DNA of 64,000 nucleotides, taken from assembly GCF_019703855.1 (NCBI RefSeq), contig NZ_AP024086.1, forward strand, positions 620,001-684,000, read 5' to 3'. A program made the position numbers and the translations under genes. Below, one piece after another: positions 18,060 to 59,482 of this stretch; the stretch's first letter is position 1, and every line of letters begins with the position of its first letter. The notes under the pieces are model-generated. The model was not told where the DNA came from. It did not search any database and worked only from the letters and a program-made list of their open reading frames with translations. The stretch is from Desulfomarina profundi. Its GTDB lineage: Bacteria; Desulfobacterota; Desulfobulbia; Desulfobulbales; Desulfocapsaceae.

Positions 18060-18116
18060 TATTGATATCTTTGATCAATGACGGGTGAATATTAATATCT
18101 TAAAGAGGAGTACGGT

Positions 18117-20375: not shown

Positions 20376-20377
20376 TC

Positions 20378-20686: not shown

Positions 20687-20700
20687 ACCCTGATGAACGA

Positions 20701-20745
20701 GAAGAGCCGTCCGACTTGATGCCGGACGGCTCTTCTTCTGTTTAT
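20701..20745 (+). terminator. Strong hairpin between napD and napG
   Basis: GAAGAGCCGTCCG (20701-20713) pairs perfectly with CGGACGGCTCTTC (20723-20735) over 13 pairs, followed by TTCTGTTTATTTT. This is terminator-like but lies inside the nap operon, so partial termination or mRNA stabilisation of napA-napD over napGH is likely. Confidence 0.75.
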
Positions 20746-20804
20746 TTTGAGTATATGTTCACAATGTGGTAGGATGATGGCAAAAGGATGAATGGAGCAG
20801 GGTT

Positions 20805-22180: not shown

Positions 22181-22920
22181 AACTGGTGCGATTGTTCATT
22201 CCGATACTGGTCGTTCTGATGGCGGGATGTTCCGGCGATAATCCGAAAACCGCCAACCCGCTGTTAAGAGATAAAAAAATCGGATGGCAGGGGAGTAATG
22301 GAGCATATTATGAATTTCTTGCCAGTGGAAGGCTCCTTGGATGCGGGGGTGACTTTCCTGAAGAGTGCTGTGTCGCAGGACAGTGGGAAAGTCTCAGTGA
22401 TAATGGCAGTTTCAGGTATTTTGAACCCGATGACGGACGGAAAAACCGTGTGGATGTGACAGTGACCGGTACCCTCGCCTCTGGCGCTGTCCTGTCATTC
22501 AGCTCTGCTGGACGAAATGATGAGGTGCCTGAGAAAGCTGGGATTCAGGGCAAGGTGACTGTGTACGAAGATATCGCAAAATCACATGAAAAGACGGCTC
22601 TTTCAGACAAGGCCTCCGTCACCCTGACACGATATAGGGACAATGTTTTTGTCCTGGAACTGATGGTGGAGGATCCAGAGGGGGAAATCAAGAAAATTAA
22701 TTCCCGGGGAGACGAAATAACCACGGAAGTGATGGTCACCAACGGCAAGAGATGGACCAATAATCCGCCAATTATTCTATCCAGCAAATGGAACACTACA
22801 ACGCCGATTCGGACTGAAATGACACTTATTTTTCATGATGGAAAAAAGGAACATGGAGTTTTTTTCACAAGCAGGGCCAAGGATAAAAGTGAAGCGGAGT
22901 TTGAAGATGACTGGTTTTGA
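22177..22920 (+). CDS. Lipoprotein of unknown function, end of nap operon
   Basis: 247 residues. The lipobox LMAGC places the acylated cysteine at residue 18. The rest is mainly predicted beta strand, with a short Cys-rich patch (LLGCGGDFPEECC, about 52-64). No haem or Fe-S motif is present. It overlaps napH by four bases, so it is expressed with the nap operon and may help anchor or assemble the periplasmic complex. I do not recognise the family. Confidence 0.75.
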   Translation: MKLVRLFIPILVVLMAGCSGDNPKTANPLLRDKKIGWQGSNGAYYEFLASGRLLGCGGDFPEECCVAGQWESLSDNGSFRYFEPDDGRKNRVDVTVTGTLASGAVLSFSSAGRNDEVPEKAGIQGKVTVYEDIAKSHEKTALSDKASVTLTRYRDNVFVLELMVEDPEGEIKKINSRGDEITTEVMVTNGKRWTNNPPIILSSKWNTTTPIRTEMTLIFHDGKKEHGVFFTSRAKDKSEAEFEDDWF

Positions 22921-23009
22921 AAATTCCCTCTGGATTTTTGATACCTTTTTTTGATAGAATTCATCTAATTCCGGGTCACTGTAGACAGAAGGGAAACCAG
23001 TGGCTCTTT

Positions 23010-23057
23010 GTTACCGTCAGGTAGCTTGCGTCTTTCTTTTCGTTACCGGACGGTAAC
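23010..23057 (+). promoter_or_regulatory. Tandem activator sites upstream of the Hao operon promoter
   Basis: GTTACCGTCAGGTAGC (23010-23025) and GTTACCGGACGGTAAC (23042-23057, a perfect dyad) have starts exactly 32 bp apart. They match the two sites before the nap promoter in sequence and spacing. The second begins 68 bases before the GG of the -24 element, against 69 at nap. Confidence 0.8.
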
Positions 23058-23107
23058 TGTCTGAACCTTCTGTTCTCCGCATTCACTCTGTATACACGAT
23101 ATGTAAA

Positions 23108-23124
23108 ATGGAATTGATTTTGCA
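23108..23124 (+). promoter_or_regulatory. Sigma-54 (-24/-12) promoter of the Hao operon
   Basis: ATGGAATTGATTTTGCA has GG and GC separated by ten bases and TTGC at -12. It begins 119 bases before the GTG start of the tetrahaem cytochrome gene. The match at -24 (TGGAA) is shared with the nap promoter. Confidence 0.75.
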
Positions 23125-23226
23125 AAAGTCAGGTATCTTATCTTTTTATCTTTTGATTTTTTTAACGGGAAGGACGATTCGCATAAACAACCTGTTCTTC
23201 TTTAAACATTTTTAAGGAGGTCTTAC

Positions 23227-23772
23227 GTGCAATCGGAGTCGAGATCGAAGTACTACTCCCATCTGGTCAGGCTGATTATTGCCCTGGTCGTTGTCGGAGT
23301 TGCCGGATTTTTCGCCAGGAAGGTGTTCTCACCGGCCACAATGGGACAATATGGACACTATCGTGGTGCTGACATTGAGGATCAGAAAAACATACCCGTT
23401 CGGCTCCAGACCAATGAGTCGTGTTTTCAGTGTCATAAGCCCATCAGGAGGATTCATAGGAAAGGTGTGCATAAGACGGTTTCCTGTGAGATCTGTCACG
23501 GTCCGTACGCAGATCATGTAAAAGATGGTAAAAAGACAGGTACCCTGCCGGTGCGAAGGGGCAAGGAAATAACCCATCTCTGCCTGCGGTGTCACAATAA
23601 AATTATCCAGGCACGTCCCAGGAAATCAATCAAAATGGTGGGGATGCCGCAACATCTTGAAGAAAAAAAGGTTCGGATTGAACATACATGTGATCAGTGC
23701 CACATGGTGCATGATCCTCTTCTTTGGATCAATCAGGCCAAGGAAATGATTGGTATAAAGGAGGAAATGTAA
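23227..23772 (+). CDS. Membrane-anchored tetrahaem cytochrome c
   Basis: 181 residues from a GTG start, supported by AAGGAGG nine bases upstream. A single N-terminal membrane helix (about 12-31) leaves the domain in the periplasm. Haem sites are CFQCH (66-70), CEICH (87-91), CLRCH (119-123) and CDQCH (155-159). The anchored tetrahaem layout resembles NrfH/NapC in function, although the sequence looks more like small cytochromes paired with NrfCD modules. It starts the operon that encodes an Fe-S protein, NrfD and Hao, and would link the membrane module to the octahaem enzyme. Confidence 0.88.
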   Translation: MQSESRSKYYSHLVRLIIALVVVGVAGFFARKVFSPATMGQYGHYRGADIEDQKNIPVRLQTNESCFQCHKPIRRIHRKGVHKTVSCEICHGPYADHVKDGKKTGTLPVRRGKEITHLCLRCHNKIIQARPRKSIKMVGMPQHLEEKKVRIEHTCDQCHMVHDPLLWINQAKEMIGIKEEM

Positions 23773-23774
23773 CG

Positions 23775-24569
23775 ATGATTGACATTAAAAAAGAGATTGA
23801 ACAGGATCGCCGTGCATTTATTAAAAAGGTGCTGGGTGGGACCATCGCCGGTTCCCTGCTCCTGGTAATTCCGGCAAACAGTGTGGAAATTGCCGAACAG
23901 ATTCCAGGTATGAGGGCCGAGGATTCCGTGTTTACCAAAAAACAGTTTGCCTTCGTTGTGGATATTACTGCCTGTATCGGTTGTGGCTCCTGCTGTGTTG
24001 CCGACAAGGCTGAATATAATGTTCCGGACGGAAACTACCGGACATGGGTGGAGCGGTATATCATAGACGACAACGATGATGTCTATGTGGACTCACCGAA
24101 CGGGGGACTGGACGGATATACTAAACCCCGGGAAGGGTTACCTCATCCGACAAGGGATACATTTTTTGTTCCCAAGCTCTGTAACATGTGTAAAAAACCC
24201 TCCTGTGTCCAGGTTTGCCCTGTCGGGGCCACCTATCAGACAAAGGACGGTTTTGTCTTGATTGATAAGACCCGCTGTGTCGGTTGTTCATACTGCATTC
24301 AGGCCTGTCCCTATTCCGTTCGGTTTATAAATCCAAAAACCCGGACTGCTGAAAAATGTACCTGGTGCTATCACCGGGTCCGCAAGGGGCTTTTGCCGGC
24401 ATGCGTGGAAGTCTGCCCGGTCCACGCAAGGAAATTCGGTGATCTGTCTGATAAAAATTCAGAAGTCTGGAAGATTCTCCATGAACCCCATGTTATCTCG
24501 GTATTGAAACCGGCCATGGGCAATGAACCGGCCCTTCACTATGTAGGGTTAAGAAGGGAGGTGGTCTAA
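23775..24569 (+). CDS. Tat-exported four-cluster ferredoxin subunit (NrfC/DsrO-like)
   Basis: 264 residues from the ATG at 23775, which has GGAGG ten bases upstream. The Tat signal DRRAFIK (11-17) has a hydrophobic stretch after it. Cysteine groups CIGCGSCC, CNMCKKPSCVQVC, CVGCSYCIQACP and CTWCYHRV with CVEVCP form the four [4Fe-4S] sites of the NrfC/DmsB/HybA family. It overlaps the nrfD gene start by one base. It should sit on the periplasmic side and pass electrons between NrfD-bound menaquinol and the cytochromes encoded beside it. Confidence 0.9.
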   Translation: MIDIKKEIEQDRRAFIKKVLGGTIAGSLLLVIPANSVEIAEQIPGMRAEDSVFTKKQFAFVVDITACIGCGSCCVADKAEYNVPDGNYRTWVERYIIDDNDDVYVDSPNGGLDGYTKPREGLPHPTRDTFFVPKLCNMCKKPSCVQVCPVGATYQTKDGFVLIDKTRCVGCSYCIQACPYSVRFINPKTRTAEKCTWCYHRVRKGLLPACVEVCPVHARKFGDLSDKNSEVWKILHEPHVISVLKPAMGNEPALHYVGLRREVV

Positions 24570-25759
24570 TGAGCGGAGTAGCAGCCCACGGCGGCACGGT
24601 TGCCGCTTTATCCAACTATGTGTTTCCAAATGACTGGCATGTTCACTGGAGCCTTATGATTGTGCTCTATCCCTATATCACCGGTATTGTGGCAGGTGCT
24701 TTTATCGTTTCATCCCTCTATCACGTATTCGGCATAAAGGGGTTGAAACCCATTTCCAGGTTCTCCCTGGTTTTTGCTCTCGCTTTTCTAGCCTGCGCCA
24801 CATGGCCTCTGCTTCTGCACCTTGGTCACCCGGAAAGAAGCCTTTCCATGCTGCTGACACCGAATCCAACCTCGGCCATGGCAGGCTTCGGCTATATTTA
24901 TTCGGCATATTTTATCCTTCTGGTCCACGAGATACTTTTTATCTATCGGCCGACTACAGTAGTTCTTTGGAAGGAATCAACTGGCTTGAAGGCAAAAATG
25001 TATGCCATGCTTGCCTTTTTCAATGATAATGTTTCCGAAGAGGCTATGCAGCTGGATCATAAGATCATATCTTTTCTTGCTGCCGTTGGTATCCCCATGG
25101 CCTGTGTTCTCCATGGCTATGTCGGATTTATTTTCGGCGGGATCAAGGCAAACCCGCTCTGGGCCACGCCCCTGATGCCGGTAATTTTTCTTCTTTCCGC
25201 CTGCGTTTCCGGTATTGCCGGAATTGTATTTGCCTATATCCTGATCAAAAAGGTTACCGGCGGAGAAGTTGACGTGGACTGCATCCGTACAGCATTGAAG
25301 TTTCTCTGGGGCTTTTTTATCCTCGACTTTGTTTTTGAAATGCTGGAAGTTTTTACCCATTTCTACATGAGTACTCACCACTGGCATGTGCTGGAAAATC
25401 TGCTATGGGGTCCTCTGTACAACACTTACTGGCTCTACCAGGTAAAAATCTTTTCCGTGATTCCGTTTATTCTGCTGGGGGTTCTCAGTCTTGTGAAGTT
25501 GAAAGACAGGGTGGTCCTCTTTTTTGCTCCAATAGTTTCCTTCATGATCCTGATTCAGGTTCTGCTGATGCGCTGGAATGTCGTTATCGGAGGTCAGCTG
25601 ATGTCCAAAAGTACCAGAGGGCAGGTGACATTTGTTCCGGAATGGCTTGGCAGGGAAGGTATCCTGGTGGCTATCGGTATAATGATTGCCCCCATGGTAA
25701 TTCTCTTTATTCTCAGCAGAATTTTTCCACTCTGGGTGGAAAAGGAGGTTGCGGAGTAG
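24569..25759 (+). CDS. nrfD: NrfD/PsrC-family membrane quinone oxidoreductase subunit
   Basis: 396 residues with about nine to ten hydrophobic helices starting near residue 28. The typical early motif HWSLMIVLYPYITG and the HLGHPERS loop (about 87-94) identify the NrfD/PsrC family, which binds quinone and works with a four-cluster ferredoxin. The family member could be called NrfD, PsrC or DsrP; the partner octahaem cytochrome suggests a nitrogen-oxide role. It overlaps the ferredoxin gene by one base. The next gene, hao, is separated by 271 bases with two hairpins. Confidence 0.9.
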   Translation: MSGVAAHGGTVAALSNYVFPNDWHVHWSLMIVLYPYITGIVAGAFIVSSLYHVFGIKGLKPISRFSLVFALAFLACATWPLLLHLGHPERSLSMLLTPNPTSAMAGFGYIYSAYFILLVHEILFIYRPTTVVLWKESTGLKAKMYAMLAFFNDNVSEEAMQLDHKIISFLAAVGIPMACVLHGYVGFIFGGIKANPLWATPLMPVIFLLSACVSGIAGIVFAYILIKKVTGGEVDVDCIRTALKFLWGFFILDFVFEMLEVFTHFYMSTHHWHVLENLLWGPLYNTYWLYQVKIFSVIPFILLGVLSLVKLKDRVVLFFAPIVSFMILIQVLLMRWNVVIGGQLMSKSTRGQVTFVPEWLGREGILVAIGIMIAPMVILFILSRIFPLWVEKEVAE

Positions 25760-25807
25760 CTTAAATATTGGGCAGGTCTGTAATGTTCAGACAATTGAAA
25801 ATGTAAT

Positions 25808-25831
25808 ACCTGAATCCCGCAGGATTCAGGT
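25808..25831 (+). terminator. Hairpin after nrfD
   Basis: ACCTGAATCC (25808-25817) and GGATTCAGGT (25822-25831) form a perfect ten-pair stem with a four-base loop, followed by AATAAAAATT rather than a true U tract. It may act as a partial terminator or a 3' stabiliser. Confidence 0.55.
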
Positions 25832-25918
25832 AATAAAAATTCAGCAAGGGAGGTGGAATAGCAGGAGAAAAATCGGGTCTGACCGTTCTGCACATGAATC
25901 CTGCAGGCAGTAAATTCT

Positions 25919-25950
25919 GAATCTGTGTTTACCTGTCACAGATTCGGGGT
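25919..25950 (+). terminator. Second hairpin upstream of the hao gene
   Basis: GAATCTGTG (25919-25927) pairs with CACAGATTC (25937-25945), followed by GGGGTTTT. With the preceding hairpin it brackets the nrfD-hao junction. Confidence 0.5.
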
Positions 25951-26030
25951 TTTCAGGATGTCGAAGAGGAGGATTCAGGCCGGGCGGTCATGTAAAGAAT
26001 TTGAACAATTCTATTTCGGAGGAAAACAGT

Positions 26031-27608
26031 ATGCAACATTGGAAAAAAATGCTTTTGCTGGTACTTGCAGGGATCTTTATTTCGATTCCCGCCTTTGCCA
26101 CAACAAAGGCATCAATGGATGCGAATAATGAAAAGAATAAAGCGTTGAATGTAAAATGTGTTAACTGTCACCTGAAGGAAAACAAGTCCATGGTCAAGCA
26201 GTGGCAACATTCTCCCCATGCCGCGGCGAACGTGGCCTGCTATAACTGTCATGCGGCACAGAAGGATGATATTCTGGCCTATGAGCATGAAGGAGCAATT
26301 ATCAAGACCGTACAGTCTCCAAGGGATTGTGGTCTCTGTCACGCCAGGGAAGCAAAGGAAATGGAAAACTCCCATCATGCTTCCGCCGGGCAGATTATGG
26401 CTTCTCTGGACAACGTGCTGGGAGAGGTTATCTGTTCGCTCGAAGATAAGGCCGACGCGGTTAATGGTTGCTGGCAGTGTCATGGCTCCGTACTCAAGGT
26501 ACAAACTGACAAGGACGGTCAAACGCTGAAGAACGAGTTCCATGCGGTAATGCTTGATCCCATGACTTACCCGAATACCGGTATCGGTCGTATCAATCCC
26601 GATGGCTCCAAGGGTTCCTGTATGGCCTGTCACTCCAAGCATTCCTTCCGTTCCGCCGTTGCCCGCCAGCCTGAAAACTGCGGCAAGTGCCATCTCGGCC
26701 CGGATCATCCTCAGAAGGAAATCTACGAAGAATCCAAACATGGCATCGCCTACTATTCGGCAGACCGTGGTCGTGGTATGAATGGTATGAACATCCAGAA
26801 GGCTGGTACCTGGGTACTTGGCAAGGATTATTATACTGCTCCTACCTGCTCCACATGTCATATGGGATCTTATGAGAAGTCCAACGGTGCTGTTGTCCAG
26901 AATACCCATAATGTCGGTGACAGAATTTCCTGGACCCTGCGTCCCAAGGTTTCCGTCAAGCTGAACAGGGTTATTTTTGATGATGGTACTGTGGCTGATA
27001 TCCCTGGTGAAATTGCGCCTCAGGCCGGTACGGAAAAACAGTACAAGACCTTTGTTATCAAGGATGGCAAGTGGAAGAAAGTCACCGCCACCAAGGAAAT
27101 TGCTGAAGTTGTTTCCTGGGAAGAGCGTCGTGCAAACATGAAAGGTGTCTGTAAAAACTGTCATGGTATGCAGCAGATTGACAATTTTTACAAGCAGTTT
27201 GATGCGCTTGTTGTCACCTACAATGAGAAGTTTGCCAAGCCTGCCAAGAAGCTGTATGGTATGGCGAAGAAAGATGGTCTGATCAAGGGTTCAACTTTCC
27301 ATACCGATCTTGGATGGATCTGGTGGGAAATCTGGCATCATGAAGGTCGTCGTGCTCGTCACGGTGCTGCCATGCAGGGCCCGGATTATACCCATTGGCA
27401 TGGTCTCTATGACGTGGCAGAGAAGTTCTACTTCAAGTTTATTCCGGAACTTGTCCATCTGGCAGCCAAACATGACATGACCGAGAAGTACAAGAAGGAA
27501 ATTGATGCGATCCTCGCGCGTCCCGAACATAGATGGTATAAGGAAGGTTTTAACGCTGATGTTATGAAAGCGATTGAGGCCGAGCAGAAGGAACGCTACA
27601 AGCAGTAA
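26031..27608 (+). CDS. Octahaem cytochrome c, hydroxylamine oxidoreductase (Hao) family
   Basis: 525 residues from the ATG at 26031 (AGGA upstream). The signal peptide ends near PAFA (residue 23). Eight CxxCH sites lie at 43, 70, 100, 147, 197, 217, 273 and 374. The order and the C-terminal HHEGRRARHGAAM and PDYTHWHGLY (452-460) are those of the Hao family; the fourth haem would be the catalytic one. Reductive Hao proteins lack the tyrosine crosslink found in ammonia oxidisers. Whether it is present here needs an alignment. With nap upstream and no nrfA in view, reduction of nitrite or hydroxylamine to ammonium is the likely role. Confidence 0.92.
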   Translation: MQHWKKMLLLVLAGIFISIPAFATTKASMDANNEKNKALNVKCVNCHLKENKSMVKQWQHSPHAAANVACYNCHAAQKDDILAYEHEGAIIKTVQSPRDCGLCHAREAKEMENSHHASAGQIMASLDNVLGEVICSLEDKADAVNGCWQCHGSVLKVQTDKDGQTLKNEFHAVMLDPMTYPNTGIGRINPDGSKGSCMACHSKHSFRSAVARQPENCGKCHLGPDHPQKEIYEESKHGIAYYSADRGRGMNGMNIQKAGTWVLGKDYYTAPTCSTCHMGSYEKSNGAVVQNTHNVGDRISWTLRPKVSVKLNRVIFDDGTVADIPGEIAPQAGTEKQYKTFVIKDGKWKKVTATKEIAEVVSWEERRANMKGVCKNCHGMQQIDNFYKQFDALVVTYNEKFAKPAKKLYGMAKKDGLIKGSTFHTDLGWIWWEIWHHEGRRARHGAAMQGPDYTHWHGLYDVAEKFYFKFIPELVHLAAKHDMTEKYKKEIDAILARPEHRWYKEGFNADVMKAIEAEQKERYKQ

Positions 27609-48216: not shown

Positions 48217-51200
48217 ATGTTGTTAATTTCCTCTCTTCGAGAAAACAGGAAAAAGTTCCCGGTTGGGCCATTGGTTGTAGTTTTTCTGGTCCATTTCTTT
48301 TCATCTTCAGCAATTGCAGGGTCAAGTATCAAGGGGGCCGTTCTGAACATCCCCACCAAAATGGATCGTGATGTCAATATTGCCATCGGTAAAAACAATA
48401 AAGCCAATATGAATTCTATTGTTTTGAAAAATATTGATGTCACCGGAGTTATCAGAAACAAGGTGAAGAGCGGGACAAGTGTGAATGTGGCCATCGGAAA
48501 TAAAAATACGGCCAATCAGGACTCGGTAACAGCTGAAGGTGGCATAGTTCGCGGTGCTGTAATGAATGACACTGATACCAAGACACCAATCAACGTGGTT
48601 ATCGGCAGTGAAAACAGTGCCAACCAGTCATCAGTCGCCTTGAAGGACAGCACGGTGAATGGTGCTGTATATAATAAGTCCAGGGGGAAAAACCTGGTCA
48701 ACGTCGGTATCGGAAGCAAGAATAAACTGGATCAGGCTTCCGTCAGGGTTGAGGGGAGCACAGTCAACGGTGGTATTCTTAATTCATCTGACTCTAAAAA
48801 TCTTGTAAACGTGGCAATTGGCAAGGGAAATGAGGCTGTACAGGCGTCAACGGCAGTAAAGGATTCCCGGATAAACGGAGCACTTATCAACTCCTCCAAG
48901 GGAGACAACCTGATCAATGTGGCCATCGGCAGCGATAACAGGGCAGACCAGGCTACCGTCAGGGTTGAAGGCAGTACGATCAACGGGGTTGTTTTAAACA
49001 ATTCCGACTCCAAGAATCTTGTAAATGCTGCTATCGGCAATGAAAATACAGCGGTTCAGGCCTCCACCACTGTCAAGGATTCCACGGTGAACGGATTTAC
49101 CGTTAACACTTCCCGCAGTGAAAATGCAGTTAATGTGGCTATAGGAAACAAGAACACAGCCATTCAGAATTCCATCAGTCTTGAAGGGAGTAAGGTAAAT
49201 GGCGGGATTGTGAACACCACTACAAGCAAAAACCTGGTCAACGCAGCCATCGGAAATGAAAATACTGCGGAGCAGAGTTCTGTACTGATGAAGAACTCGA
49301 CACTGAACGGCATCGTAGTCAACAGTACGCTTGGCCAGAACGGGATTAACGTGGCTGTCGGTAATAAAAATACGGCTCAACAGTCTATCGTTAAGATGGA
49401 AGGGAGTACCGTCAATGGTGCAGTGATCAATACCACTACTTCCAAGAATCTTGTAAATGCAGCAATTGGCAACGAAAACAGGGCAACTCAGGCCTCTACC
49501 ATCATCAAGGGTTCAAAGGTAAACGGGGTTGTTGTTAATTCTGCTGTCGGTCAGACCGGTATAAACGTGGCCATAGGTAACAGGAGCACTGCAGATCAGT
49601 CGGTCGTAAGGATTGAAAACAGTAAGGTCAATGGCGCCGTGATTAATACATCCGCTGTTCAAAATTCAATTAATGCCGCCATCGGTAACGACAGCCATGC
49701 CGCCCAGGCATCGACTATTATCAAGAACACGGAACTGGACGGGGCAACAATTAATACTGTAACCGGCCAGAATGCAGTTAATGTGGCCATAGGTAATAAA
49801 ACAACAGCCGATCAATCGGTGATACGTCTGGAAGACAGCAAGGTGAAAGGGGTGATTGTCAATACTTCAGCTCTCCAGAATGCGGTCAATGCAGCAATTG
49901 GCAACGAAAGTTCAGCAACCCAGGCATCGACAGTTCTTGAGGGATCAGAGCTGAGAGGTGTGGCGGTCAATACGGCGGTCGGTCAGAATGCTGTCAATGT
50001 GGCCATAGGTAACAAGACCCATGCCACCCAGTCTTCAATCAAGATGAAAAGGACCAAGGTGGATGGTGCCATCATCAATACCTCTATCATGCAGAATGCT
50101 GTGAACGCGGCTATCGGCAACAAGAGCTCGGCTACCCAGGGTTCAACAGTATTGACTGATTCCGAGATAAAGGGAGTGACAATTAATACAGCTGTTGCTC
50201 AGAACGCAGTCAATGCCGCCATTGGTAATAAGACCCACGCGACCCAGTCTTCAATTGTCCTGGACAGGACCAAGGTTAAGGGGGCGGTTATCAATACATC
50301 AGTCATGCAGAATGCTGTGAACGTGGCCATTGGCAACGAGAGTTCGGCTACCCAGGTTTCCACGGTTATGAAAGACTCAGAACTGAAAGGCGTAACCGTC
50401 AATACCGCGATCAGTCAGAATGCTGTTAATGCTGCCATCGGCAATAAAACTCATGCGACCCAGTCTTCAATCGTTCTTGACAGGACGAAAGTCAAAGGGG
50501 CAATCATAAATACATCTGTTGCTCAGAATGCCATAAACGCGGCCATTGGCAACGAGAGTTCAGCTACCCAGGCGTCAACCATAATGAAAGATTCGGAGCT
50601 CAAGGGTGCTATCGTGAACACCTCCGGTGGTCAGAACGTGATCAATGCTGCTTTTGGCAACAGAACTGAAGCCAACCAGGTTGCAGCCAAAATTACGGAC
50701 AGCAAGATCGAGGGTGCGGTTGTCAATACAGGGATCAGCCAGAATGCTGTAAATGTGGCCATCGGTAATGAAAGCTCTGCATCACAGACCACAACAATCA
50801 TGAAGGGCTCTGAGTTAAAGGGAGCGGTGGTAAATACATCGCTTGGTCTGAACAATGTGAATGCAGCGCTGGGAAACAGGGTGGAGGCCAACCAGGCAAC
50901 CACAAAACTGACAGACACCAAGGTCAAGGGAGCGATTGTCAATACTTCAATCGGTCACAGTATGCTGAATGCCGGAATCGGGAATAACATGAAACTGAAC
51001 CAGATCAGCTCTGTTCTGGAGAAAAGTACCGTTGAGGGTGCAGTTGTCAATACCGGAATCGGCATCGGGGCAATCAATGTGGGAGCAGGTAACGCCATAG
51101 AAGCCAATCAGGCAGCTCTCCAGGCCAGGGAAACCAATATTAAGGGTGCTGTAATCAATACAGTTGGTGGCGGAGCCGCCAACCTGGCCTTTGGAAACAG

Positions 51201-52743
51201 AATAGAAGCCAATCAGGCAGCAGTAAAGGCAGAAAAAAGCAAAATTGAAGGTACTGTTGTCAACACCGTTATCGGAGCAGGTGTGAACCTTGCTGCCGGC
51301 AACAGAATAAAAGCCAATCAGGCAGCCGTAACCATGAAGGATTCCACGCTCAGGGGAACAGCGGTCAACACTCTTGCAGGAGCCGGGGTTAATATCGCCA
51401 TAGGTAACGAAGTGAATGCCAATCAGGCTGCTGTCAGCATGGAAGGGTCAACCCTGGAGGGAACAACTGTAAATACCGCTGCGGGCGCTGCAGCCAACCT
51501 GGCCTTCGGGAGCAAGATTAACGCTAACCAGGCAGCGGTGAGTATGAAGAATTCCACCCTGAAGGGAAATGCCATTAATACTGCAGGAGGTGCTGTCGTC
51601 AACCTCGCCGCAGGAAACAGAATTGAGGCTAATCAGGCGGCAGTCAGTATGAAGGGTTCCCATCTGGAAGGTACTGTAGTGAACACGGCAGCCGGTGCTG
51701 CAGCTAACCTGGCATTCGGTAATAAGATAACCGCTAACCAGGCGGCTGTGAATATGAAAAATTCGACCCTGAAGGGTGGTAATATTATCAATACCGTTGG
51801 TGGTGCTGCAGTAAACCTGGCCGCAGGGAGCAATGTAGAGGCCAATCAGGCTGCAGTCAGCATGAATAATTCTACACTCCAGGGATCTGTAGTGAACACG
51901 GCAGCCGGTGCGGCAGCCAACCTCGCCTTTGGCAGCAATGTTGAGGCGAACCAGGCGGCTGTCAGTATGAAAAACTCAACCCTGAAAGGGAATGTCACGA
52001 ACACTGTAGCAGGTGGTGCTATCAACCTTGCTGCGGGAAGTGGAGCCAAGGCCAACCAAGGTGCCATCGTGATGAAAAACAGTACCGTTAAAGGTAATGT
52101 ACATAACAGGGTAGCCGGAGTTGCAGCTAACCTCGCCTTTGGAAGTGGTGCGGAGGCCAATCAGGCTGCAGCCAGTCTGTCGAACACTACAATTGGGGGC
52201 AATATTACAAACAAGGTAACCGGTGCTGCTGTGAACCTGGCGGGCGGTGGAGGTGCTGTTGCCAATCAGGGTGCCATCAAGGCGAATAACAGTACAGTTA
52301 GAGGAAGTGTTACCAATAAGGTTAGTGGAGCTGGTGTGAACCTGGCTCTTGGAAGTGGAGCCCATGCGAATCAGGGAGCAACTGAACTGAAAGGTGCTAC
52401 TGTTCGGGGAAGTGTTTCCAACAGTGTGGGTGGTGGAGCTTTGAATCTGGCTCTTGGCCGTGGAACAGAAGCCAACATGGGGGCGACCGTGATCAGAAAT
52501 GCGAGTGTCGGCTCTGTTTCCACAAGAGTCAGAGGAGGAGCTCTTAATCTGGCATTAGGCAGCGGAGCCCAGGCCAATTCGGGTACTGTTGCTGTTAATA
52601 GCGGAAGTGTAGGCAATGCGCATGTTTATTCTGGAACAGGAATTGTGGTGAATGACGTCAAATCACCACTCAGTTTTGGCCAAAACATCAACATCGCAAC
52701 GGGAGGGCAAGTTTCGAATAAAAACTCTGTAATTATCAAGTAG
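48217..52743 (+). CDS. Giant secreted repeat protein, curlin-like (candidate amyloid subunit)
   Basis: 1508 residues. A signal peptide is likely cleaved after SAIA (residue 34). The rest is 40 tandem units of 36 residues (units 1-25) then 35 residues (units 26-40), core VNxAIGNxxxAxQ plus a segment like STxxxxStVNGaVINTs. Regular Gln, Asn and Ala positions recall curlin repeats (NxAxxxQxGxxNxA), predicting a stacked beta-solenoid or amyloid. Units 1-25 alternate in two subtypes. From unit 26 polar linkers become Gly/Ala/Val-rich (GAAVNLAA). No Cys after the signal. The end (about 1470-1508) is non-repetitive. A smaller repeat protein, a third small protein and a CsgG-like gene follow. A surface fibre or coat is the likely product, inferred. 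Confidence 0.8.
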   Translation: MLLISSLRENRKKFPVGPLVVVFLVHFFSSSAIAGSSIKGAVLNIPTKMDRDVNIAIGKNNKANMNSIVLKNIDVTGVIRNKVKSGTSVNVAIGNKNTANQDSVTAEGGIVRGAVMNDTDTKTPINVVIGSENSANQSSVALKDSTVNGAVYNKSRGKNLVNVGIGSKNKLDQASVRVEGSTVNGGILNSSDSKNLVNVAIGKGNEAVQASTAVKDSRINGALINSSKGDNLINVAIGSDNRADQATVRVEGSTINGVVLNNSDSKNLVNAAIGNENTAVQASTTVKDSTVNGFTVNTSRSENAVNVAIGNKNTAIQNSISLEGSKVNGGIVNTTTSKNLVNAAIGNENTAEQSSVLMKNSTLNGIVVNSTLGQNGINVAVGNKNTAQQSIVKMEGSTVNGAVINTTTSKNLVNAAIGNENRATQASTIIKGSKVNGVVVNSAVGQTGINVAIGNRSTADQSVVRIENSKVNGAVINTSAVQNSINAAIGNDSHAAQASTIIKNTELDGATINTVTGQNAVNVAIGNKTTADQSVIRLEDSKVKGVIVNTSALQNAVNAAIGNESSATQASTVLEGSELRGVAVNTAVGQNAVNVAIGNKTHATQSSIKMKRTKVDGAIINTSIMQNAVNAAIGNKSSATQGSTVLTDSEIKGVTINTAVAQNAVNAAIGNKTHATQSSIVLDRTKVKGAVINTSVMQNAVNVAIGNESSATQVSTVMKDSELKGVTVNTAISQNAVNAAIGNKTHATQSSIVLDRTKVKGAIINTSVAQNAINAAIGNESSATQASTIMKDSELKGAIVNTSGGQNVINAAFGNRTEANQVAAKITDSKIEGAVVNTGISQNAVNVAIGNESSASQTTTIMKGSELKGAVVNTSLGLNNVNAALGNRVEANQATTKLTDTKVKGAIVNTSIGHSMLNAGIGNNMKLNQISSVLEKSTVEGAVVNTGIGIGAINVGAGNAIEANQAALQARETNIKGAVINTVGGGAANLAFGNRIEANQAAVKAEKSKIEGTVVNTVIGAGVNLAAGNRIKANQAAVTMKDSTLRGTAVNTLAGAGVNIAIGNEVNANQAAVSMEGSTLEGTTVNTAAGAAANLAFGSKINANQAAVSMKNSTLKGNAINTAGGAVVNLAAGNRIEANQAAVSMKGSHLEGTVVNTAAGAAANLAFGNKITANQAAVNMKNSTLKGGNIINTVGGAAVNLAAGSNVEANQAAVSMNNSTLQGSVVNTAAGAAANLAFGSNVEANQAAVSMKNSTLKGNVTNTVAGGAINLAAGSGAKANQGAIVMKNSTVKGNVHNRVAGVAANLAFGSGAEANQAAASLSNTTIGGNITNKVTGAAVNLAGGGGAVANQGAIKANNSTVRGSVTNKVSGAGVNLALGSGAHANQGATELKGATVRGSVSNSVGGGALNLALGRGTEANMGATVIRNASVGSVSTRVRGGALNLALGSGAQANSGTVAVNSGSVGNAHVYSGTGIVVNDVKSPLSFGQNINIATGGQVSNKNSVIIK
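48388..52665 (+). repeat. Tandem 108/105-bp coding repeats, 40 units
   Basis: DNA-level tandem array encoding the repeats above. Unit phase begins at GGNAA (Gly-Lys/Asn) and recurs every 108 bases until about 51088, then mostly every 105. Units 15-21 are most alike (GNESSATQ and GNKTHATQ alternate), suggesting recent duplication there. This array is prone to assembly collapse. Confidence 0.85.
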
Positions 52744-52795
52744 TAGTAACGTTGTTGTAATCAACCAAGAATAAATCAAAATGAGGGCACAAATT

Positions 52796-53755
52796 ATGAA
52801 AAAGAAGATCTTAGTTAGCGTTATTGGAATGGCACTGGCAATGAGCGTATCAAACGGAATGGCAGGCTCAAAAATCGACGGAAAAGTGTCCAACAAGAGC
52901 AAAGTCAAAAAATCGATCAACATGGCCATTGGCAAAAACAACAAGGCCCGGATGGGATCAATCAGCATGAAGGGTACCACCATCAGTAAGACCGGTGTAG
53001 TAACAAACGATTCCAAGGTGAAGAAATCCATTAATATGGCCATAGGCAAGAACAATACTGCCAATATGGGTTCCATTAGCATGCAGAACACGAAAATCGC
53101 CGGTAAGGTGTCCAACAAGAGTTCCGTCAAGAAATCCATCAATATGGCAATAGGTAAGAACAATACTGCCAATATGGGTTCCATTAACATCAAAGGTGGA
53201 TCAGTTGGAAAAACTGGTGTAGTAACCAACAATTCCAAAGTTAAGAAGTCCATCAATATGGCAATCGGTAAAGGAAACACTGCCAATATGGGTACCATTA
53301 ACATGAAGAATGCCAAGGTTAATGGAAAAATGTCCAACAAGAGTACCGTGAAGAAATCCATCAACATGGCAATCGGTAAAAACAACACCGCCAATATGGG
53401 TACCATTAACATGAAAGGTGGATCCATCACCAAAACCGGTGTAGTAACCAACGATTCCAAAGTTAAAAAGTCCATCAATATGGCAATTGGTAAAGGGAAC
53501 ACCGCCAATATGGGTACTGTTAATCTGCAGAATTCAAAAATTGCCGGGAAGGTTTCCAACAAGAGTTCTGTTAAGAAGTCCATCAACATGGCCATTGGTA
53601 AAAACAACACCGCCAACATGGGGACTGTTAATATCAAAGGCAGCACTGTTGGAAAAACCGGTGTGATTACCAACAATTCCAAGGTTGAGAAATCCATCAA
53701 CATGGCAATTGGTAAAGGTAACGAATCCAGCATGGGTTCAGTTTCTGTAGAATAA
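52796..53755 (+). CDS. Second secreted repeat protein with Met-ladder repeats
   Basis: 319 residues from the ATG at 52796 (GAGGG eight bases upstream; an upstream in-frame ATG is less well placed). The signal peptide ends at GMA (residue 23). Eight units alternate at 36 and 38 residues, core KKSINMAIGKxNTANMGSI, with either GKVSNKSSV or GKTGVVTNNSKV linkers. The position of Gln in the giant protein is Met here, and units are strongly basic (KVKK). It lies 52 bases after the giant gene, presumably in the same operon, and may be a second fibre subunit or a cap. Confidence 0.78.
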   Translation: MKKKILVSVIGMALAMSVSNGMAGSKIDGKVSNKSKVKKSINMAIGKNNKARMGSISMKGTTISKTGVVTNDSKVKKSINMAIGKNNTANMGSISMQNTKIAGKVSNKSSVKKSINMAIGKNNTANMGSINIKGGSVGKTGVVTNNSKVKKSINMAIGKGNTANMGTINMKNAKVNGKMSNKSTVKKSINMAIGKNNTANMGTINMKGGSITKTGVVTNDSKVKKSINMAIGKGNTANMGTVNLQNSKIAGKVSNKSSVKKSINMAIGKNNTANMGTVNIKGSTVGKTGVITNNSKVEKSINMAIGKGNESSMGSVSVE

Positions 53756-53774
53756 ATAGTACGAAGTAGTTGTC

Positions 53775-53811
53775 AGGGACCCTGCTTTGCGAAAAGCCGG
53801 GCAGGATCCCT
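53775..53811 (+). terminator. Hairpin after the second repeat protein gene
   Basis: AGGGACCCTGC (53775-53785) and GCAGGATCCCT (53801-53811) pair at ten of eleven positions. GTTACTGTTT follows, a weak U tract. It may reduce transcription of the downstream genes relative to the two repeat proteins. Confidence 0.5.
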
Positions 53812-53862
53812 GTTACTGTTTCACCTCCAGATGAGACTGTTGTCAGATATGAGAGACGGATC

Positions 53863-54204
53863 ATGAGATTACGATATGTAGTGATATTTATATTCTTGCT
53901 TTTGCCGCTTATGGCAGGTGGTTCTGTCCTGGCCGGTGACCTGGATGATGGTATTTCCAAGTTCACTGATGACGGGATGTCCAAATACGATGACTTGGGT
54001 AAAGCTGATAAAAACGTCAAGTTCATTGTTATAAACGCCAAAAGCAAGGCGAACATGATGAAGGGTAAAAAAGGCAAGAACGGCAAGGGTAAGAAGGGCG
54101 ACGCCAATATGAACAGTGTTGTTCTTGGTGCCGGGAGCCGGGTCAAAGGTGATATTTATATCATAGACCAGAGTAGAGGCCCGAAAACGAATGTTGCCGA
54201 TTAA
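53863..54204 (+). CDS. Small secreted protein related to the repeat proteins
   Basis: 113 residues from the ATG at 53863; upstream codons in frame read through the hairpin and are unlikely. The signal peptide ends at VLA (about 24). After an Asp-rich stretch (GDLDDGISKFTDDGMSKYDDLG) comes VKFIVINAKSKANMM, a lysine/glycine block KGKKGKNGKGKKG, and DANMNSVVLGAGSRVKGDIYIID, which is a single divergent copy of the ANM/ANQ repeat. By position and size it could be a minor or nucleating subunit, as CsgB is in curli. That role is inferred. Confidence 0.65.
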   Translation: MRLRYVVIFIFLLLPLMAGGSVLAGDLDDGISKFTDDGMSKYDDLGKADKNVKFIVINAKSKANMMKGKKGKNGKGKKGDANMNSVVLGAGSRVKGDIYIIDQSRGPKTNVAD

Positions 54205-54431
54205 ACTCTGAATCCCGGATTTTCTGCCTCTGGCAGTTTATTGTGGAAAATAATCCTGGAAGGTTTTATTCTTACTACTTTCCAGCTATCATGGGGCAGT
54301 GGCCTGAAACAGTCACTTTTTTGGGGCCTGTTTCAACACCCTAGTTTTGCGTGGTGGTTCTTGTATTGGGCGGGCATCGTAAGATATCTGTAAATTGTCT
54401 TTACTGTAATTTCTAAATTGGATTGTTAGAT

Positions 54432-55870
54432 ATGATACTAAACAAGACTGCAACCGTCAGTTCTTCCAGGGTCAGCTGTTTATCCTCACGGAACGTACTC
54501 ACTGTGCTTTTTCTCAGTCTGGCTTTTTTGCTGTTGTCTGCATGTGGGGACATGAACCCCATAACGTAGATGTGGAACTCCAGAAAAGTGCCCCGGTTGA
54601 GAAAATTACCTCATATAGCCAGGCGCTTCTCGATCTCGGTCTCATGACAGAGATCTATGATACCGGGTATATGAAAGTTCAGAGTCAGGACATTGCGGAT
54701 GAAACCGGTACTTCTGTTACTACCGGAGGAGAGATTCAGAGAAATATTACGGAAATAATGAAAAGTACCCTGAATTCCATCGGGGGTAATGTTCTCTTTA
54801 TCGAATATGATCCTGCATACATACAGAACCAGATGGTTTCCGGATACAGCAATTTTGAAGATAAGGTTGTTCCCGATGTGGTGATAACCGGCGGTATTAC
54901 TGAATTTGATCGTGGACTTGAAACAAGAGGTGAAGGGACAAACGTCGATGCCGAATTTGACGTGAACGGTGTACCCAGCTGGTTTCCTAATAAAACAGTC
55001 GGGGGAAGTTTTGGCGATACTTCAAAATATGGGAAGGCAAGGATTACCCTGGATTTCAATCTGAAAGATTTTCAGACGCTGGCAGGTATTCCCAGGATGA
55101 CTACAACCAACAGCATGGAGGTATATAAAGGACTCCGTGAGAAAGAATTGGCCATAACTCTTTTTGGTCCGAGTTTTGGATCTAAAGGAACGATTAAAAA
55201 GGTTCAGGGCAGGCATGAAGCCGTTCGGGTTCTGGTCCAGGTCAGTATGATGCAGTTGATAGGACGTTATCTTGCTGTTCCTTACTGGCGTCTAATGGGC
55301 GAGGGCTCTGAGCCGGATAAAATTGTTCTGGATTCCATTTCCGGAACGTATTATCGCATGTCAAAGGAAGACAGGATCGGAGCAGTACAGCAATGGTTGA
55401 TTCTGCATGGGTATGATGTGGATATAACCAATAAAATTGATGGAAAAACCCGTGAAGCTCTTCAGAAGTTTGATCCTGCTTTCAGCGCCACAGCAGACGA
55501 GGTGAGTGAGAAACTATTTACTGATATTTATATTTCTATTCCCATTACCAGGGCAACTCTTGCCCGAAGGGATATCATCAATAAATATTATGCCAGCCTG
55601 CAGGAAACGCAGGAAGAACCGGCAGTGCAGGAAGCAGCACCAGCGGTTCAGCAGGCTCCAGCTCAGCAGGCGCCGGCTCAGCAGCAGGTGGCAGAGCAAC
55701 CAGCTCAGCAGCCGCAGGAAGCTGCTCCTGTACAGGCAGCTGCACCAGTTCAGGAGGTAGCACAGGCACAGTCTGTTCAACAACCTGCACCTGAACCGGT
55801 AAAAAAAGCTGCTCCTGCCCGTAAGAAGCCGAAAAAATTCGGCAGGAAGCTGTCAGCGGATGATTGGTAA
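54432..55870 (+). CDS. CsgG-like secretion lipoprotein, frameshifted
   Basis: A 38-residue lipoprotein signal with lipobox LLSAC starts at ATG 54432. It is one frame away from the body, which begins near 54560 (NVDVELQKSAPV). One added base in the G4 (54546) or C4 (54557) run joins them into 479 residues. The body (about 45-290) has the CsgG pattern: SYSQALLDLGLM..., DVVITGGITEFDR, ARITLDFNLKDFQT and HEAVRVLVQVSMMQLIGRY. A peptidoglycan-binding-like segment follows (RIGAVQQWLILHGYDVDITNKIDG), then an Ala/Gln/Pro tail (about 380-460) and a basic end. CsgG forms the outer membrane pore for curli subunits, so this is the likely exporter. Confidence 0.75.
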
Positions 55871-55930: not shown

Positions 55931-56668
55931 ATGTTGTTAAAAAGAACTGCAGTCAGCTATGTTCTGGTCATGATGTTTGTTGGCACAACCATTGCGGTTG
56001 CGGGAAATAAAAAAATCATGTCAACCCGTGCTGCGAGGGTACTGGCGGAACGGGCCATTGTTGAATCCGTATATGGTTTGAAGATCAGATCGACGGAAGA
56101 GGTCGTCGATATGGTTGCCGCAAATTTTGTTGGTAAAACTGAGTCAAAAACGTCTGCAGAAATTCAGGGGATCAAGATTGATGAGGTTGTCTACGATGCT
56201 GAAAAAGACATCGCCCAGGCAACAGCCTCTATCAGTATTGACACGATAACCAATATTGATGGCCAGGAATTGGATTTAAAAGGGAAGACCTTTAAAAGAG
56301 TTGCTTTTGCAACTTCAACTCCTGCCAATGCCGGACCTCTCAGGGCATTACGGGCGGCAGAGTTGGACGGGTACAAAAACCTGGTCAAGACCATTGTTGG
56401 TTTTACCCTGGAGAGTAAAACCACTGTTGAAAACTATATCCTGACTTCTGACATTGTCAAAGTGAAGGTTATGGCTACAACTTACCTGGCTGATCTTGTT
56501 GATTATGGCTGGGACGAAGAAGGTAATGCCTTTGTGAAATTCAAGGTGACCAAAAAAGATATTGAAGATATTCTCGGTGCTTCAATTCCTGGTGTCGATG
56601 ACGTGATAGAAGTAGAAGGTCACGGTGCCCAGGTTGATGATTACTCTGCTGCTAAGGCTCAATCTTAA
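55931..56668 (+). CDS. LPP20/FlgP-like secreted protein
   Basis: 245 residues. GGAAGGAG precedes the ATG. The signal peptide ends near TIAVA (about 24). The body starts with STRAARVLAERAIVESVYGLKI and later RALRAAELDGYKNLVKTIVGFTLESKTTVENYI, resembling the LPP20 lipoprotein family seen in surface and flagellar envelope proteins. There is no lipobox Cys. It lies 60 bases after the csgG-like gene and may help secretion or anchoring. Family assignment is by pattern and moderately sure. Confidence 0.6.
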   Translation: MLLKRTAVSYVLVMMFVGTTIAVAGNKKIMSTRAARVLAERAIVESVYGLKIRSTEEVVDMVAANFVGKTESKTSAEIQGIKIDEVVYDAEKDIAQATASISIDTITNIDGQELDLKGKTFKRVAFATSTPANAGPLRALRAAELDGYKNLVKTIVGFTLESKTTVENYILTSDIVKVKVMATTYLADLVDYGWDEEGNAFVKFKVTKKDIEDILGASIPGVDDVIEVEGHGAQVDDYSAAKAQS

Positions 56669-56950: not shown

Positions 56951-57271
56951 TTGAAATTGATCATGGATAAGAAAATAAATATTTGGCGGGAAAGGATTGT
57001 TTCTTTCACAATAGGTGCGCTGTGTCTGTTTGTTGTCTCTTTACTGATGGGGGCGGCTTCTGATTATCAGAATTCAACACTGAACTACGGGAGATACCAG
57101 ATTTCCTCCTGGGCTACTCAGCTTAATCGTGGAAGTGGTGCTGTTGGGGCGTTTGTTCTGGATACTGTATCCGGAGAAACGAGGACAGTGTATATGCGTA
57201 CTTATGGAGATCCTGGTGATACAAGGGTAGTGAAAAATAACCTGAAAAAATCATTCAGCGCCATGAGGTGA
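56951..57271 (+). CDS. Small exported protein of unknown function
   Basis: 106 residues from TTG 56951, chosen because GGAGG (56936-56940) is ten bases upstream; the next ATG (56963) is 22 bases from it. One hydrophobic segment (about 18-36) is a signal or anchor. The rest is short and has no motif (SSWATQLNRGSGAVGAFVLD, RTVYMRTYGD). Its stop lies seven bases before the DUF2807 gene start. I do not recognise it. Confidence 0.6.
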   Translation: MKLIMDKKINIWRERIVSFTIGALCLFVVSLLMGAASDYQNSTLNYGRYQISSWATQLNRGSGAVGAFVLDTVSGETRTVYMRTYGDPGDTRVVKNNLKKSFSAMR

Positions 57272-57278
57272 TGAAAAA

Positions 57279-58004
57279 ATGACATTTTTCAAAAGGGTTT
57301 TTCGATTGCGGTATGGTTTGGTACTGCTTTGTCTGTTCTTTTTATTTGGATTTCAAAATATTAATATCGGTGTGAATAACCAGGTGAATACAGGTGGTAT
57401 TGTCGGAGGTGACTGCATCCAGGGAAATGGCAGGATGACAGAAGAGGTGCGCCATACGGAACCTTTCAGTGAAATACATGTTGAAGGTGTTCTCGATGTA
57501 CACCTTTCCTGCGGTGACAGGCAGCATGTTGAAATAACGGCCGATTCGAATCTTCATTCAAAAATAATTACCACAGTGAAAAACGGTAGATTGACGGTTT
57601 ACGCGAAGGGTTCCGTCTGTACACAGAATCCGATGGCCGTTAAAATCACAACCAGGAAAGCATTGCGGAAAATAGCAGCTGATGGCAGCAGTGATCTGGT
57701 TGGTCTGTTGAATAGCTGTTCTTCAAAAGAATTGTCAGTTGACCTGCAGGGTGCCTGTACCTTGAAGCTTGTCGGTTCCACCCAAAATCTTGAGCTGCGG
57801 CTGCAGGGATCATCTGAGTTTGATGGGGAGGCATTTCATGCGCAGAATGTAAAAGTCATCACTGAAGATGCTACTGAGGCAAAGATTTATGTTACCGATA
57901 CACTCTCCGGCAGTGCCGGTGGTACCAGCGAGGTTCAGTATGGCGGGAATCCACCACATGTGCAGGTTGATACATCAGATATTGGTGAAGTAAGTCCATT
58001 ATGA
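57279..58004 (+). CDS. DUF2807 (GIN-domain) secreted protein
   Basis: 241 residues. GAGGTG at 57265-57270 supports the ATG. After a hydrophobic N-terminus (about 10-27), residues about 45-230 repeat short strands: FSEIHVEGVLDVHLSCGDRQ, VEITADSNL, LTVYAKGSV, KIAADGSSDLVG, LSVDLQGACTLKL and LELRLQGSSEFDG. This matches DUF2807, a beta-solenoid-like putative adhesin head domain. Its stop overlaps the protease start by four bases (ATGA). A surface or periplasmic role is likely. Confidence 0.78.
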   Translation: MTFFKRVFRLRYGLVLLCLFFLFGFQNINIGVNNQVNTGGIVGGDCIQGNGRMTEEVRHTEPFSEIHVEGVLDVHLSCGDRQHVEITADSNLHSKIITTVKNGRLTVYAKGSVCTQNPMAVKITTRKALRKIAADGSSDLVGLLNSCSSKELSVDLQGACTLKLVGSTQNLELRLQGSSEFDGEAFHAQNVKVITEDATEAKIYVTDTLSGSAGGTSEVQYGGNPPHVQVDTSDIGEVSPL

Positions 58005-59482
58005 CAGGTTCCAGGTTTCTAAAATTGTTTTTTTTCTCTGTTCTTGTTCTGTGTTTTTTCCTTCCGACCGAGGGAAATACCACTTCCCCGGCAGAAATTG
58101 TTGTTAAAATTCAAACGGTAAGAAATTCTCCAAATTTCCAGCAACCGTGGCAGCATGTCGGCCAGCTCACGACCCATGGAACCGGCTTCATAATTGATGG
58201 CAATATGATATTGACCAATGCGCATGTGGTCAGCGACAGCGTCTTTATCCATGTTCGACGGGCTGGGAGAACTGAGAAATATTCAGCTGAAGTTAAATAT
58301 TTTGATCATGAGAGTGATCTTGCTCTCCTCGAAGTTGCTGAAAAAAAATTTTTTAAAGGAGTATCAACTCTAAAAATCGGTGATTTGCCGGATGTACGGG
58401 ATAAAGTCGCTGTATATGGCTTTCCGGACGGAGGAGACAAACTATCCATCACTGAGGGTGTTGTATCGAGAATAGAGCACATAAATTACGCTTACAGTGG
58501 ATCATTTCTTCTATCCTGCCAGATCGATGCGTCAATCAATGCCGGTAATTCCGGCGGCCCCGTAATTTTCAACGGGAAAATTGCCGGTGTTGCATTTCAA
58601 GGAATGCACAGCGGCTACGACAATATCGGATATATGATTCCGGCTCCTGTCATTCAGCAGTTTTTGAAGGATACAGAGGATGGCTCCATTGAGGGAATTC
58701 CTGATCTTGGAATATCCATGCAGAAGCTGGAAAGTCCGTATTTAAGAAATTATTACAAACTTGAAGATGGCGAAAATGGAGCTCTGATCAACAATATTTC
58801 CCCAGGCTCACCTTCCCGGATGCTGTTAAAAAAAGAAGATGTAATCCTGTCCGTTGAAAATGAAGATGTTGCCTATGACGGGACGATAGAATTCCGAAAA
58901 GGGCAGAGAACTTTTTTTGGTTATATTATCCAGGGAAAACAGATCGGTGAAACGATAACTCTTGGTCTGAAAAGAGATGGGAAAAAGATCAGTATAGAGG
59001 TGCCGTTGCAGCGCTCAGTCGGTTTTGATCGATTGGTTCCCTATAAACATGAAGTACTGCCCCGTTACTACATTTTCGGTGGAGTTGTCTTTCAACCCCT
59101 TACGCTGAATTATCTCATGGAGTACGGGAGCGTAGCGGACTGGTATCAATCTGCTCCGGTTGAACTCATGGATTATTATCTGAACGGGGATCTAGAGTTT
59201 CAGACACAGGAGATTGTAATTCTTTCACAGGTTTTAGCTGACAAGGTTAATATCGGCTACCATGAACTGGCTGACAATGTCATTAAAACGGTGAATGGGG
59301 TGGCAGTCAGGAATTTTGCTCACCTTGTTACTTTGCTAGAAAACAGCCGGGAGAAATATCTGATTATTATGGATACCCAGGGAACAAAAATTGTTTTTGA
59401 CAAAGAGAAAATGCTGAAAGGTACGAACAATATAATTAGAAAATATATGATCAAATCTGCAAAACACTTCTGGTCACCTTGA
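58001..59482 (+). CDS. HtrA-like trypsin-family serine protease with PDZ region
   Basis: 493 residues with a signal peptide. The catalytic triad is visible: His75 in LTNAHVVSD, Asp106 in HESDLALLEV and Ser184 in NAGNSGGPV. A PDZ-like domain follows (about 225-320; NNISPGSPSRMLLKKEDVILSVE) and a second one may lie at about 395-460 (DNVIKTVNGVAVRNF). This is a Deg/HtrA-type periplasmic quality-control or processing protease. It is coupled to the DUF2807 gene by a four-base overlap, so it may process or guard proteins of this locus. Confidence 0.88.
   Translation: MTGSRFLKLFFFSVLVLCFFLPTEGNTTSPAEIVVKIQTVRNSPNFQQPWQHVGQLTTHGTGFIIDGNMILTNAHVVSDSVFIHVRRAGRTEKYSAEVKYFDHESDLALLEVAEKKFFKGVSTLKIGDLPDVRDKVAVYGFPDGGDKLSITEGVVSRIEHINYAYSGSFLLSCQIDASINAGNSGGPVIFNGKIAGVAFQGMHSGYDNIGYMIPAPVIQQFLKDTEDGSIEGIPDLGISMQKLESPYLRNYYKLEDGENGALINNISPGSPSRMLLKKEDVILSVENEDVAYDGTIEFRKGQRTFFGYIIQGKQIGETITLGLKRDGKKISIEVPLQRSVGFDRLVPYKHEVLPRYYIFGGVVFQPLTLNYLMEYGSVADWYQSAPVELMDYYLNGDLEFQTQEIVILSQVLADKVNIGYHELADNVIKTVNGVAVRNFAHLVTLLENSREKYLIIMDTQGTKIVFDKEKMLKGTNNIIRKYMIKSAKHFWSP

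Follow-up and report, generated by a model that had tools for sequence, protein, structure and literature searches.

A conserved gene module encoding repeat proteins and a candidate CsgG/HfaB-like exporter, most likely for a beta-solenoid fibre, in Desulfomarina profundi

Genes of the locus

The window analysed here is a stretch of 64,000 nucleotides from Desulfomarina profundi, a bacterium of the sulfate-reducer type. At positions 48217-52743 of its forward strand lies an open reading frame for a secreted protein, designated GIANT, with 40 imperfect repeats of 34-36 residues. The initial annotation had described a protein of 1508 residues and 40 repeats, and this count was confirmed. The 40 repeat starts are spaced by 36 residues in 26 cases, by 35 in 12 and by 34 in one, and the core motif is present 39 times; in 1000 shuffled versions of the protein it appeared 0.04 times on average and never more than twice. 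The unit reads N-x-A-I-G-N-x3-A-x-Q ... S ... G-A-V-x-N-T, and the conserved C-terminal signature of the protein reads ...SPLSFGQNINIATGGQVSNKNSVIIK. Among 38 aligned repeats of 35 or 36 residues, N1, G5 and G24 were invariant and A10, Q12 and N28 nearly so; the Gly, Asn and Gln positions were also invariant across 50 repeat pairs from six proteins. Hydrophobic positions are regularly placed along the repeats, which form ladders of Asn and Gln; the protein contains no Cys and few aromatic residues. A rule-based assessment found its N-terminus to be signal-peptide-like. A cytoplasmic location for these proteins was dropped, since their N-termini are signal-peptide-like by rule.

Within GIANT, the repeats share a mean identity of 41%. 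When the best repeat matches between GIANT and its orthologues were compared, both ends proved to be colinear and the middle rearranged. GIANT is thus, judging from its repeats, an old and maintained array, and recent tandem amplification was dropped in view of this mean identity and of the colinear ends across species. Tandem Repeats Finder reported a two-repeat period of 213-222 bases in this region. No Pfam or NCBIfam model matched GIANT, REP2 or SMALL (the latter two described below) over its cut-off. A PDB sequence search returned a designed PPR protein for GIANT (5e-7), which was rejected as an artefact of the 35-residue periodicity, as PPRs are helical. YadA-head-like repeats were dropped as well, having no Pfam match, and PDB searches with the repeat and exporter profiles gave chance matches only.

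The second gene, REP2 (52796..53755, +), encodes a secreted repeat protein of 319 residues with 8 repeat starts spaced by 36 or 38 residues. Its open frame extends from 52781 to 53755, with the best start at 52796. A 356-residue open frame runs antisense to it (52663-53733, -); this frame is an artefact of repeat composition. Antisense frames also shadow the repeat genes of relatives and could mislead annotation. The third gene, SMALL (53863..54204, +), encodes a secreted protein of 113 residues from its best start, whereas a listed TTG start at 53770 would give 144 residues. Homologues aligned from 14 other loci share its N-terminus, DLDDGISKFTDD...NVKFI..AKSKA, and its C-terminal part contains a repeat-like stretch, NMNSVVLGAGSRVKGDIYIIDQS, of about one repeat. 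Between SMALL and the following gene, a terminator-like hairpin with a T-run is present at 54298-54322, in a gap longer than the corresponding one at locus L031 (about 54 bases). The hairpin could lower expression of the exporter relative to the subunits. Terminator-like sites in general were about twofold more frequent than in shuffles. A promoter scan performed no better than on shuffled sequence, and no RNA element was found with Rfam at E <= 0.5 between 44000 and 60500.

Concerning the CsgG-like gene (CSGG), the initial annotation had proposed an outer-membrane lipoprotein. The body (54542..55870, +) is predicted to be a CsgG/HfaB-like outer-membrane protein on the basis of profile matches and an alignment, and includes a peptidoglycan-binding-like domain at about residues 260-350, followed by a Gln/Ala/Pro-rich tail. 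A lipoprotein signal peptide with a lipobox (LLLSAC) is encoded at 54432..54569 (+; MILNK...LLLSACGDMNPIT*), but in a frame different from that of the body. The lipobox and body do not form one open frame here. In five of seven aligned relatives (L031, L032, L034, L036 and L037) signal peptide and body share one frame; the other two, L033 and L035, entered the alignment from partial starts. The split suggests that the gene may be broken in this strain, or misassembled.

The Pfam CsgG model (PF03783) matched CSGG with an E-value of 0.054, below the cut-off, and the best members of its family reached 0.0016-0.0018, the lowest value among close relatives being 0.0018. A profile of CSGG aligned with the true CsgG profile with a score of 51.6 (Prob 86%); with a larger template the score was 35.7, against 9-20 for reversed or column-shuffled controls. 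Cousins of CSGG at L053 and L054 (29-32% identity), which also stand beside repeat proteins, match the NCBIfam HfaB model partially and far below the cut-off (7.5e-8 and 3.4e-5). By these comparisons the exporter is a remote relative of CsgG and HfaB that matches CsgG weakly. An AlphaFold2 (AF2) model of the protein from 8 sequences had a pLDDT of 39, the peptidoglycan-binding-like part excepted. With the Pfam match below cut-off and this low pLDDT, the role of CSGG as a pore is one that we infer.

The initial annotation had ended the locus at 55870. The module in fact runs on to about 59482, with four further genes on the same strand. The first (55931..56668) encodes a secreted protein of 245 residues that shows 55-82% identity in most linked relatives and 50% at L081. 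We call it LPP20-like after its L043 orthologue, which matches LPP20 (PF02169) over the cut-off (E 6.7e-6); the L037 orthologue matches with E 0.016, and Pfam gave no LPP20 match for the protein of the window itself. It is followed by a conserved protein of 102-106 residues (56951..57271), syntenic in most relatives, and by a secreted DUF2807 (head GIN domain) protein (57279..58004; Pfam E 5.3e-28), also syntenic. The last gene (58001..59482) encodes an HtrA/DegP-like periplasmic protease with PDZ domains (Pfam Trypsin_2, 8.7e-24; PDZ_3, 2.5e-41) and is syntenic at L034, L035, L036, L044, L082 and L083. Elsewhere in the window, a respiratory module with no relation to this locus occupies positions 17038-27608; its products are cytochromes, a molybdopterin oxidoreductase, FeS and NrfD-like proteins and a multihaem cytochrome.

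Predicted fold and chain ends

The C-terminal third of GIANT (residues 1055-1508) was modelled with AF2. The result was a parallel beta-solenoid with a pLDDT of 90.7 and a pTM of 0.90, the five models ranging from 73 to 91, in agreement with the solenoid suggested initially. DSSP assigned an all-beta structure to the model, with about 4 short strands per repeat. The nearest solved folds found with VIA-align were those of Vag8 (Z 26.2 over 324 residues, rmsd 3.6) and pertactin (Z 22.7), and EtpA was also among them; Foldseek gave no match in PDB or BFVD at E <= 0.001. AF2 is known to assign high confidence to incorrect beta-solenoids when given random perfect repeats (PMC11795689). As the repeats of GIANT are imperfect and conserved, this risk of overcalling is lowered, though still present. 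We regard a parallel beta-solenoid with one rung per repeat as the predicted fold of GIANT.

The ends of the repeat proteins were then compared among loci. Mature REP2 consists of an N-terminal part of 18 residues, the repeats, and a C-terminal part of 18 residues, the former counted from the predicted signal cleavage to the first motif and the latter from the start of the last motif. The sum of 36 was found in 16/16 loci, in proteins with 2-13 repeats, although these loci represent few independent events because the ends are inherited by descent. Two of the 16 were read by eye, as the regular expression had missed the start at L043 and the end at L044; both obey the 18 + 18 rule. In those GIANT proteins whose two ends could be identified by the common form, these ends comprise 19 + 17 residues. 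Chains made up in this way of a whole number of repeats are what head-to-tail stacking of a solenoid needs.

Conservation and composition of the module

Gene order around the CsgG-like gene was compared at 26 loci and then at further loci. The order originally described, with GIANT followed by the second repeat protein, the small protein and the CsgG-like gene, was confirmed and recurs in relatives, and a search of other Desulfobacterota showed that the module recurs there. The CsgG-like gene was detected in 25 of 144 relatives, 19 of them with strong matches, and adjoins repeat and small proteins in at least 20 loci; at L043 the same module genes are present in a different order. Named hosts are Desulfobulbaceae, Desulforhopalus and Desulfobacterales MAGs. 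Neither the repeat genes nor the CsgG-like gene was found in the other six genomes of the window's genus (assemblies 72-88% complete), and the plasmid collection contained no exporter homologue. The distribution of the module is patchy.

The repeat proteins and the CsgG-like gene nevertheless form a conserved unit, as indicated by synteny and by their co-occurrence. Among the 144 relatives, the repeat profile was found in 19 genomes, a strong exporter in 19 and both in 17 (p about 5e-18, kinship ignored). One of the exporter-side exceptions, G101, has its exporter gene at a contig edge; in the other, G137, the exporter nevertheless follows a SMALL homologue and two repeat proteins that have diverged. 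In two genomes with repeats, the exporter was not detected. A phylum-wide sample of 395 genomes gave an exporter in 5/5 repeat-bearing genomes (p 5e-9 without the window's own genome, kinship ignored).

The initial annotation had also likened the gene order to that of curli, with a giant major subunit in first place. This did not hold, as the core is composed of REP2, SMALL and CSGG, and GIANT is optional and movable: it is intact elsewhere, decayed at its home site, or absent. The minimal unit, at L084, contains only these three genes, with a REP2 of 93 residues, 72 of them in the mature chain, and two repeats. At four loci (L031:6960-8200, L032:7200-8200, L038:7650-8850 and L040:12040-13050), the syntenic site upstream of REP2 contains decayed fragments of the GIANT ends that have lost most of the repeats, and the genome of L031, G080, harbours an intact giant of 1366 residues elsewhere. 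Giants in relatives range from 768 to 1863 residues, and some are far from the exporter.

Additional CsgG-N-domain proteins were observed in some genomes. At L087:9937-12600, about 2-5 kb past the right end of the window, genes for a SPOR-domain protein and for a protein with FlgO/CsgG-N and FGE-sulfatase domains are present, and in G077 and G080 similar CsgG-N-domain matches are found at a distance of about 10 kb from the exporter.

Comparison with known systems and interpretation

The main known examples of CsgG-type export are curli and the holdfast anchor; a third subunit family, as yet unnamed and with partner genes of its own, would broaden this class. A literature search combining CsgG with Desulfobulbaceae found no paper. 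As in curli, the subunits here are secreted proteins with a Gly/Asn/Ala/Gln repeat grammar (many repeats contain the curlin string N-x-psi-x-A-x-Q; PMC10192328), a CsgG-related gene lies alongside, and the chains end in half-repeats. On the other hand, the repeat comprises 35-36 residues against about 23 in curlin, the exporter is a distant relative that carries both a peptidoglycan-binding-like domain and a Gln-rich tail, and LPP20-like, DUF2807 and HtrA-like partners are extra. The initial annotation had set the subunit apart from CsgA by its length; length alone is insufficient, as some known curlins have as many as 62 repeats (PMC10192328). It had also recognised no CsgE or CsgF, an absence that extends to the whole genome, as does that of Curlin_rpt (PF07012), which was likewise not found in the window proteins. 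PF07012 did match in 2 of the 144 relatives and in the E. coli control. Absence of CsgE and CsgF is a weak criterion, since CsgE is also missing from alphaproteobacterial curli, as CsgF often is (PMC3521004). True curli genes were found in the relatives G019 and G120, with CsgE only in G019. The G019 locus (L088), from a member of the same family that lacks the giant-repeat module, is a genuine curli operon with curlin genes, CsgE, CsgF and CsgG.

Resemblance to the Fap system of Pseudomonas (FapB/FapC) is found in the FapC core string, GN-psi-G-psi-N-psi-a-a-G-x-g-N-q-Q-N (PMC12392863), which is similar to NVAIGNxxxAxQ here, in the repeat length (38-39 residues against 35-36) and in the several short strands per repeat. 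FapC, however, usually contains 3 repeats separated by long linkers. Genes of the fap type were not recognised here, a search of PDB sequences (including FapC 9nqd and 9u4u) with repeat profile A1 gave no FapC match up to E 10, and FapC was not among the structural-comparison matches listed for the GIANT model. Despite the similar core strings, no profile links the repeat core to curlin or FapC. With HfaABD, the holdfast anchor of Caulobacter, the locus shares a CsgG-type outer-membrane protein accompanied by a small protein of curlin-like type and by a larger adhesin; its subunits, in contrast, are long regular repeats, and the partner genes differ. As for the beta-helix adhesins Vag8, pertactin and EtpA, a parallel beta-helix is predicted here too, with one rung per repeat, but the regular 35-36-residue unit and the CsgG-like exporter are particular to this locus. 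By the comparisons made, the unit belongs to none of the curli, Fap and HfaABD systems, and seems to resemble a CsgG-dependent fibre in its working.

Taken as a whole, the locus is most likely a conserved, unnamed export-and-assembly unit for a beta-solenoid fibre, and we consider it probable that the unit is dedicated to a fibre assembled outside the cell. Sec would carry REP2, GIANT and SMALL across the inner membrane. The CsgG/HfaB-type lipoprotein would form an outer-membrane pore, held to peptidoglycan by its extra domain, through which the repeat proteins would leave unfolded, while the LPP20-like protein and the HtrA-like protease may have periplasmic roles in pore assembly and quality control. 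Once outside the cell, each repeat would fold into one solenoid rung, and the chains would stack head to tail. GIANT, with its matching 19 + 17 ends, could insert as a roughly 40-rung segment of about 20 nm, and SMALL, with its stretch of about one repeat, would be a likely nucleator or pore adaptor. The fibre may serve in adhesion or as biofilm matrix.

A holdfast-anchor-like complex, in which the CsgG/HfaB-like protein would set the repeat proteins on the surface as an anchor or adhesin for polysaccharide and no long fibre would form, is an unlikely alternative but the strongest one. Among curated families, HfaB comes closest to the cousins of the exporter, and HfaA is curlin-like and HfaD adhesin-like, both depending on HfaB (PMC6707917). 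The HfaA, HfaB and HfaD models, however, gave no match at E <= 1 among the window proteins, no holdfast polysaccharide genes were seen beside the module, and chain ends that add up to a whole repeat speak for polymerisation. In this genome REP2 carries a strong positive charge (54 K+R against 6 D+E), as would suit such an anchor, yet such a charge is not general among the sequences of relatives.

We think it less probable still that the products are monomeric, rod-like surface adhesins that leave through the CsgG-like exporter, with GIANT a single long stalk rather than a polymer subunit. Such a stalk would by itself span about 20 nm; the nearest folds of the model are the beta-helix adhesins, and the repeats are fused to a subtilase in related loci. 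Against this, REP2 ends in half-repeats with no cap, the 93-residue REP2 of L084 is too short for a stalk, and Pfam detected neither an autotransporter barrel nor a TPS domain in the window proteins. That the repeats are a low-complexity or disordered secreted polymer, the AF2 model being an artefact of repetition, is very improbable: AF2 can be wrongly confident on perfect repeats and Foldseek found no PDB match, but the GIANT repeats are imperfect and largely colinear between species, and their invariant Gly, Asn and Gln and regular hydrophobic positions are unlike disorder.

Returning to the exported solenoid fibre, we tentatively raise the possibility that it represents a separate class, exported by a CsgG/HfaB-type protein and anchored to peptidoglycan. 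Its core subunit would contain a whole number of repeats, from 2 upwards, with optional single-chain segments of about 720-1840 residues, and gain, relocation and decay of giants would change its composition. It would provide a natural length series, in which chains with identical ends have between 2 and about 50 repeats, for studying how repeat number sets fibre growth and mechanics.

Repeats of the same kind are also found with a subtilase-type C-terminal region at L039:12335-14221, L099:1978-4041 and L100:8824-10953; Peptidase_S8 was confirmed for the L039 fusion, and those at L099 and L100 are preceded by an apparent ECF sigma factor and a second small regulator-like gene. At L052-L055, L085 and L086, distant CsgG/HfaB-like genes (25-32% identity) lie beside other, unrelated-looking short repeat proteins, and judging from their sequences these are possibly further exporter-fibre families.
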